Of a DNA stretch of 33,620 bases, positions 8,514 to 12,653 are shown in pieces. Position numbers and translations under genes: made by a program. Below the pieces are notes generated by a model that was given only the letters and a program-made list of their open reading frames with translations, did not search any database and was not told the origin of the DNA. This stretch comes from Clostridia bacterium. GTDB lineage: Bacteria; Bacillota; Clostridia; Oscillospirales; Acutalibacteraceae. Position 1 is the stretch's first letter. Each line of letters begins with the position of its first letter. Where the stretch lies: contig JAUMXZ010000007.1 in assembly GCA_030528905.1 (NCBI GenBank), forward strand, positions 1 to 33,620. Reading direction: 5' to 3'.

Positions 8514-8882
8514 TTAAATTACTTCTTTTAAACGGGTGTCTTTTAATCCGAAACTGATTGACAGAGCTCTGTCAATACCGGACATACAATTAACGCCGAC
8601 AAAACCCATTTTTTCTCTCAAGCGGGTTTTATCAAGAGTTCTTATTTGTTCGAGAAGAACAACAGAATCTTTAGTTAAGCCGCTGGTATCAGCTTTAAGT
8701 TTTATATGAGTGGGCAGAGCAGACTTAGTTTGCTGACTGGTAATAGCAGCAGCAATAACAGTAGGGCTGAATTTGTTGCCGACATCATTCTGGATTATCA
8801 AGACGGGTCTTACGCCACCTTGTTCGCAGCCTATAACAGGGCTTAAATCCGCATAAAATATATCTCCACGCTTTATGTTCAT
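8514..8882 (-). CDS. mazF: MazF/NdoA-type endoribonuclease toxin (PemK family)
   Basis: A 122-residue single-domain protein, usual length for Gram-positive MazF. It has the family start ([31 protein letters not shown]), an AAITSQ segment near the active site, and a C-terminal region with [14 protein letters not shown]. MazF cleaves mRNA at short single-stranded motifs and is normally held in check by a small antitoxin encoded directly upstream. Here only 165 bases separate it from asnS, and no ribbon-helix-helix or AbrB-like antitoxin frame is present. ATG is at 8882 with GGAG about nine bases before it. No clear promoter was found, so read-through from asnS is possible. Confidence 0.93.
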
Positions 8883-11144: not shown

Positions 11145-11855
11145 TTATTTAGATAAGTCGTCAGAAACATTTTTTTCTACATTTTTTATCAGATTATTTA
11201 GAGAAGAAGCCAAAACAGGATATTCTTTAGATATTATTTCAGGGGACAGGTTAATAGAATCCCTTTGAGTTTTAGAGAGACCTTTTTCATTGTTTACATT
11301 ATTTCCGTTAGCAAGAGTCTGAGCTTTAGCCTCATTTATATTTTCATAAGCAGAAACAAGACCCTTATACATATCTGAATTGATAGAGAAGAAGGATGTT
11401 GGGTTTTTAGAGTTAGCAGAGAATATAATTCTGAAAATCTTGTATATGGAGGAGAACAGGAAATCTGAAACGACCTTGATAAAAGCCTTATTATTGATTT
11501 TTTGGAGTATATCGAATATAATGTGAATGGAGTTTATTATGAGTTTTTTATTAAGGGTAGCAACGATATTTCCTTTAAACTTTTTATCAGAAGTATTACT
11601 ATCGAACTCAGGAATATCCTCTACAGATAAAACAAGGCCGTTTTTCTCAGGGGAACGACCTAAAAGATAATCTATTGAAACATTATAGTAATCAGCAATT
11701 TTAACAACAAAGTCGAGTTTACATTCTCTTATTCCTTTTTCATAGTGAGAAAGAAGAGCCTGAGATATACCTAAATCTTTAGAAGCTTGTTTTTGGCTTA
11801 GATTCTTCTCAACTCTTAAAAGAGTGATAACTCTTGCGAAGCTATTTTTTGAAAT
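11145..11855 (-). CDS. XRE-family transcriptional regulator, apparent ATT start
   Basis: A 236-residue protein if read from ATT 11855. Residues ~6-66 are a textbook Cro/C1-type helix-turn-helix (RVEKNLSQKQASKDLGIS, then QALLSHYEKGIRECKL, then DYYNVSIDYLLGRS). The middle (~95-160) is hydrophobic and basic; the Ser/Asn-rich C-terminus resembles nothing I know. Upstream in frame is a TAG (11865-11867), and there is no ATG, GTG or TTG before a methionine near residue 162. AGGGGG (11869-11864) sits eight bases before ATT 11855 and five before ATC 11858. A good promoter lies upstream. Probably co-transcribed with dCMP deaminase. The domain is sure; the start codon is inferred. Confidence 0.85.
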   Translation of the reverse strand: MSKNSFARVITLLRVEKNLSQKQASKDLGISQALLSHYEKGIRECKLDFVVKIADYYNVSIDYLLGRSPEKNGLVLSVEDIPEFDSNTSDKKFKGNIVATLNKKLIINSIHIIFDILQKINNKAFIKVVSDFLFSSIYKIFRIIFSANSKNPTSFFSINSDMYKGLVSAYENINEAKAQTLANGNNVNNEKGLSKTQRDSINLSPEIISKEYPVLASSLNNLIKNVEKNVSDDLSK

Positions 11856-11863
11856 GATAAAAA

Positions 11864-11869
11864 CCCCCT
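11864..11869 (-). promoter_or_regulatory. Ribosome site deciding the XRE regulator start
   Basis: AGGGGG read on the minus strand. It is the only purine-rich site before the open frame and lies eight bases from ATT 11855, normal spacing in this window. Confidence 0.6.
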
Positions 11870-11920
11870 ATATATCACATATTACATCATTAACCGATAA
11901 ATAATTTTAACACAATGTAA

Positions 11921-11949
11921 ATTATAATAAAAAAAAAACCCTTTGTAAA
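11921..11949 (-). promoter_or_regulatory. Promoter of the XRE regulator gene
   Basis: On the minus strand, TTTACA (11949-11944), a 17-base spacer and a perfect TATAAT (11926-11921). The -35 box lies inside the palindrome CCTTTGTAAAGG (11940-11951), a candidate operator. Confidence 0.75.
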
Positions 11950-11992
11950 GGAATTTTTTTCTGAAAAACAAACAAAAATACCACACATTTTA

Positions 11993-12001
11993 TGATATAA
12001 T
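11993..12001 (+). promoter_or_regulatory. Extended -10 promoter of the histidine-phosphatase-like gene
   Basis: TGATATAAT: a TG one base before a perfect TATAAT (11996-12001). No good -35 box is seen at 17-18 bases, which fits an extended -10 promoter. It is divergent from the XRE promoter. Confidence 0.6.
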
Positions 12002-12032
12002 TTGACAAATAGCAGTTTAAAGGAGAGATTCG

Positions 12033-12653
12033 ATGAAATCGTATGTAATACACTTTATTCGTTCAGGGCTTACACAGGCCAATGAAGAGGGTATATATGC
12101 AGGAACTACGGAATATGAGTTATCTGAAAGAGGAAAAGAAGCTTTATACAGTTTAAAAGAAAGATATACCTATCCTGAAGCACCGATTTTATATTCAAGT
12201 CCTATGAAAAGCTGTATAAATACAGCAAAGATTATATATCCTGATAAGACACCGATAATTATAGATCAAATAAGAGAATGTTCTTTTGGCGACTGGGAGG
12301 GGAAAAGTTACAAAGAGATTGAAAATGACCCTGAATATTACAGTTGGATTAGAAACAGAGAAAACACAACTCCGCCCAACGGGGAAAGCGGCAAAGAATT
12401 CACAAAAAGAGTTTGCACAGCGTTTGATTTAATAGTAACAGGAATGATGAAAACCGGTAATACAGAAGCGATAATGGTAACACACGGAGGAGTTATAGTG
12501 ACGCTTCTTTGCGCATTAGCTTACCCGAAAGCTGAGTTTTACGACTGGATAGTTGATAATGGCTGTGGATATTCCGTAAGAATAATTCCATCCTTGTGGA
12601 TGCGTGGCAGAGTAATGGAAGTATTTGATAAAGTGCCAAAAGAAAAAGATTAA
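12033..12653 (+). CDS. Histidine-phosphatase-fold protein lacking the catalytic His
   Basis: A 206-residue member of the phosphoglycerate mutase/CobC-like superfamily by layout: a first strand with FIRSGLTQANEEGIYAG, SSPMKSCINTA (~55-65), the acid motif RECSFGDWEG (Glu82) and the second histidine in MVTHGGV (His151). Active members have RHG-x-T at the first site, where the His takes the phosphate, and Arg in SPL-x-R. Here the codons give Arg10-Ser11-Gly12 (CGT TCA GGG) and Ser60, so two core residues are missing. Either a non-catalytic paralogue or an altered enzyme. ATG 12033 follows AAAGGAGAG. It is alone, divergent from the XRE gene; no clear terminator follows. Confidence 0.85.
   Translation: MKSYVIHFIRSGLTQANEEGIYAGTTEYELSERGKEALYSLKERYTYPEAPILYSSPMKSCINTAKIIYPDKTPIIIDQIRECSFGDWEGKSYKEIENDPEYYSWIRNRENTTPPNGESGKEFTKRVCTAFDLIVTGMMKTGNTEAIMVTHGGVIVTLLCALAYPKAEFYDWIVDNGCGYSVRIIPSLWMRGRVMEVFDKVPKEKD

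Follow-up and report, generated by a model that had tools for sequence, protein, structure and literature searches.

In the window—the whole stretch of 33,620 nucleotides analysed here, from a gut-type bacterium—a gene for an XRE-type transcription regulator has no ATG, GTG or TTG where its translation ought to begin. On balance we lean toward reading it as a working gene whose ATG was lost in this lineage, with weak translation from a near-cognate codon, AUU at 11855 or, less likely, AUC at 11858. Initiation would be directed by a strong Shine-Dalgarno sequence, and output, by analogy with published reporters, might be about a tenth of that from AUG. If real, this adds one more transcription regulator to the few AUU-type starts found outside infC, and one acquired in a single lineage, with ATG retained in hundreds of orthologues, so that its effect could be tested against the ancestral form.

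11145-11855, minus strand: XRE regulator coding frame from ATT 11855, 236 codons plus stop; orthologues align with it over their full length
11853-11855, minus strand: ATT, the preferred start, 5 codons upstream of a conserved Phe
11856-11858, minus strand: ATC, the alternative start, 6 codons upstream of the conserved Phe
11864-11869, minus strand: Shine-Dalgarno AGGGGG(T), -9.4 kcal/mol with the 16S tail
11868-11870, minus strand: in-frame TAG, closing the XRE frame upstream
11921-11949, minus strand: XRE promoter TTTACA-17-TATAAT, 11/12 match to consensus
11916-11949, no strand assigned: direct repeat TGTAAA-N22-TGTAAA, period 28, candidate operator, overlying the XRE promoter
12033-12653, plus strand: histidine phosphatase gene, divergent conserved partner of the XRE gene

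A regulator frame without a standard start

Read on the minus strand, the beginning of the gene runs ...ATA TAG GGG GTT TTT ATC ATT TCA AAA AAT AGC TTC... From here the frame continues, with no stops within, for 236 codons (counted from ATT 11855) or 237 (from ATC 11858) to its stop codon at 11147-11145. Between the TAG at 11870-11868 and residue 162 there is no in-frame ATG, GTG or TTG; the first is ATG 11372, residue 162 when numbered from the ATT. The initial annotation had claimed as much, and direct reading of the frame agrees. It had also claimed a complete helix-turn-helix (HTH), and this is borne out by a match to Pfam HTH_3 (E 1.9e-14, 53.8 bits against a cut-off of 23, residues 14-65 numbered from the ATC) that lies above the gathering score and places the protein among the XRE/Cro-C1 regulators. 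The HTH occupies the N-terminus and is followed by a helical C-terminal domain, of which the predicted model is confident for the helices; compared with the PDB by Foldseek, this domain matched only HTH domains, none of them at E <= 0.001.

Standard gene callers were expected to keep only some 75 C-terminal residues, and a standard ORF lister does retain just 75 aa, so that for annotation purposes the DNA-binding domain is lost. That these 75 residues alone are the product, made from ATG 11372, is very improbable; this ATG is the first standard start, but the coding signal spans residues 1-161 (0.35, versus 0.42 for the whole frame), the HTH is intact, and every orthologue is full length.

The initial annotation also had AGGGGG lying eight bases before the ATT and five before the ATC, exactly as the sequence reads. 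AGGGGGT pairs with the 16S tail at -9.4 kcal/mol, compared with a median of -5.4 for the orthologues, and only 6% of 130 ATG frames in the same genome have a Shine-Dalgarno as strong. Spacings peak at 6-9 nt among the orthologues and at 8-9 among infC starts, and the 8 nt of the ATT is near the mode. The leader RNA is no more stable in structure than its shuffles (z -0.35). The gene has the sequence characteristics of genes with near-cognate starts: where the N-termini of its homologues lie it has no standard start, and a near-cognate codon stands at a suitable distance from a Shine-Dalgarno.

A hexamer coding model was applied to a 226-kb sample of the same genome, composed of 20 stretches from 20 contigs (~190 kb), the window and the infC locus, and containing ~216 coding frames of at least 100 codons. 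Only in the XRE frame does a long coding stretch (165 codons, score 0.34) precede the first standard start. What else was listed comprises antisense shadows, short stretches and a single short coding frame (L186:3491-3841, minus strand), which has 33 codons without a standard start and stops nearby upstream, and may be a broken gene.

Where the orthologues begin

Protein searches covered 60 related genomes, 398 genomes of the same family, and a genome collection, and found many full-length orthologues, none more than 56% identical to the protein of the window. Their starts were compared using as anchor the conserved Phe at the beginning of the HTH (FARVITLLR in the window). In a first set of loci, ATG, GTG or TTG occurs 3-7 codons before this Phe in 131 of 132 readable loci, the exception being the window itself; in 113 loci it is an ATG at 4 codons, and otherwise an ATG sometimes falls at 3 or 5. 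In a further set, all 79 readable loci have a standard start at the expected place. Together, 210 of 210 readable orthologues—some species may occur twice, in two collections—have the standard start that the window lacks; one locus, L238, was left out of the count as its contig ends at the start codon.

Because all 210 begin at this place, no upstream part of the protein appears to be missing. A longer N-terminus, which would have spoken against an ATT start, occurs in none of the homologues, and can be ruled out. The homologues do not share the odd codon, either: aligning them had been suggested as a check for the same start, and none of the 210 has it. By this comparison, the non-standard start is a change peculiar to this lineage, or to this one genome, since no homologue shares it. 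Several orthologues (L005, L024, L034 and L058, for example) have ATC-ATG or ATT-ATG where the window has ATC-ATT, and the latter looks like a derivative of ATC-ATG by one third-base change. Apparent initiation at ATT (or ATC), as originally proposed, remains the best-supported reading, given where the homologues start and that gene, promoter and Shine-Dalgarno all look preserved, although it is a start that no homologue has in common with it.

An error of one base, or a minority variant in the assembly consensus, might instead conceal an ordinary ATG. A single substitution turns either codon into ATG, at 11858 or at 11855, and a standard start is present in each of the 210 orthologues; the assembly is of the metagenome type and fragmented (145 contigs, 2% contamination), the genus is represented by one genome, and the odd codon has been seen once. 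Against this, the local error rate looks low, because those genes of the 33-kb contig that were checked match Pfam families over their full length and show no evident frameshifts, and an error would need to have hit the start codon. We regard a concealed, ordinary ATG as unlikely, but a possibility to be taken seriously. Insertion or deletion error alone is ruled out; between the Shine-Dalgarno and the HTH there is no ATG, GTG or TTG in any frame.

Maintenance or decay

The change might, alternatively, be a genuine and recent mutation that abolished the start, and the gene might be at the onset of decay. The change is private to one genome, the genome is small (1.4 Mb), and the protein differs at four further, otherwise invariant positions, compared with 0-2 for 20 aligned homologues, although in this 21-sequence alignment it is also the most distant member. 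What opposes decay is the full frame, the average divergence, the strong Shine-Dalgarno and the conserved promoter. Mean identity was compared against 54 genomes that have both the XRE and the phosphatase genes, and the divergence of the XRE gene is what would be expected from the phosphatase (residual +0.017, sd 0.040, rank 37 of 55). Because of this match the gene, on this measure, has not been evolving freely, and its coding score in the hexamer model is on a par with those of other genes. With its frame whole, its divergence average, its Shine-Dalgarno strong, and its promoter, repeat and partner retained, the gene looks alive. These arguments bear on old decay only; very recent loss would be traceless. 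Incipient decay seems to us quite unlikely, but with the odd codon known from a single genome, neither it nor a base error is a negligible prospect.

Near-cognate starts and IF3

Translation from a near-cognate codon, the reading we prefer, appears to have company in the same genome. The infC gene (L139, C30:8561-9064 and upstream) has no ATG, GTG or TTG at the expected start, where the sequence is GGAGGTGCTTTGTC and then ATA AGT AGC; it appears to begin with ATA. In nearly all relatives the infC start is ATT, ATC or ATA, following GGAGGTG. Codons of this kind are an established route of IF3 autoregulation in E. coli; infC begins with ATC in Streptomyces (PMC5472188) and with ATT in B. subtilis (PMC6097659). 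Judging from these start codons and the established autoregulation, it is very probable that this lineage, too, has near-cognate initiation and the brake that IF3 puts on it. Sensitivity of the XRE start to IF3 is plausible for the same reasons—an apparent ATA in the genome's own infC, and ATT, ATC or ATA in those of its relatives—and the level of IF3 might then set the output of the regulator. A larger proposal, that the change of ATG to ATT together with the strong Shine-Dalgarno has put the regulator under IF3 fidelity control, such that its level and that of the divergent phosphatase track the state of the translation machinery, strikes us as unlikely. The near-cognate start itself has precedents in ccpN (AUA), sigR (GTC) and pcnB (AUU); the fidelity-linked role is one that we infer.

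Among the nearest known systems is ccpN. Work on S. aureus published in 2026 mapped an AUA start for this HTH repressor, conserved with B. subtilis, and an AUU start for cvfC1; reporters gave ~10% of AUG output, and ccpN up to 30% in rich medium, and the near-cognate starts all had extended Shine-Dalgarno pairing (PMC13009471). Both ccpN and the XRE gene encode HTH regulators in Firmicutes, and combine a near-cognate start with a strong Shine-Dalgarno, but the two belong to different regulator families, and the ccpN start is conserved across species and demonstrated by Ribo-Ret and reporters, whereas that of the XRE gene is read from the sequence of one genome. The infC starts belong to the same codon class and have a Shine-Dalgarno spacing of 8-9, and the genome's own is apparently ATA; infC differs in encoding the very factor that discriminates among codons, and in having an unusual start that is conserved throughout the order. 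Streptomyces sigR, with a GTC start repressed by IF3 (PMC5472188), is likewise a transcription regulator, and an inefficient start codon would keep the level of the XRE regulator low, too; sigR differs in its codon, in its translational coupling with rsrA, and in that control by IF3 has been shown experimentally. E. coli pcnB, as cited from Binns and Masters 2002 in PMC13009471 and PMC9410913, has an expression-limiting AUU start outside infC, but encodes poly(A) polymerase rather than a DNA-binding regulator. Among these genes the XRE gene would be set apart by the acquisition of its start in one lineage only.

Promoter, repeat and divergent phosphatase

The promoter claimed upstream, TTTACA-17-TATAAT, is present at 11949-11921; exact matches of this type are expected by chance 0.09 times per window. 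Diverging from it is the histidine phosphatase gene, and the same divergent pair, which the window also has, occurs in 122 of 135 loci. By full-length similarity and by this neighbor the XRE gene belongs with its orthologues; by a standard start it does not. A box resembling TTGTAAAG, corresponding to the -35 of the XRE promoter as read on the opposite (plus) strand, is present in 110 of 123 intergenic regions, and in 35 there is a second GTAAA copy exactly 28 bp away; both copies are present in the window. Outside the Ruminococcus flavefaciens-like group, 34 of 55 regions have the 28-bp GTAAA pair, versus 0-1 in shuffles. From its position, the repeat is likely to be an operator for autoregulation of the XRE gene and for control of the phosphatase. 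Binding of the regulator to this repeat, over the promoter of its own gene, is probable, and a weak start would reduce its steady-state level. The pair and the 28-bp TGTAAA repeat offer a concrete regulon for what is apparently an uncharacterized family of regulators in this order.

A phage or mobile origin for the locus was considered and rejected: megablast against phage records returned no match, and the neighbors are housekeeping genes. The window also carries a gene for a MazF/PemK-like toxin, at 8514-8882 on the minus strand. The conserved divergent pair and, at the frequencies given above, the TGTAAA direct repeat of period 28 were noted in the intergenic region of the window (11856-12032) and across loci L004-L138.
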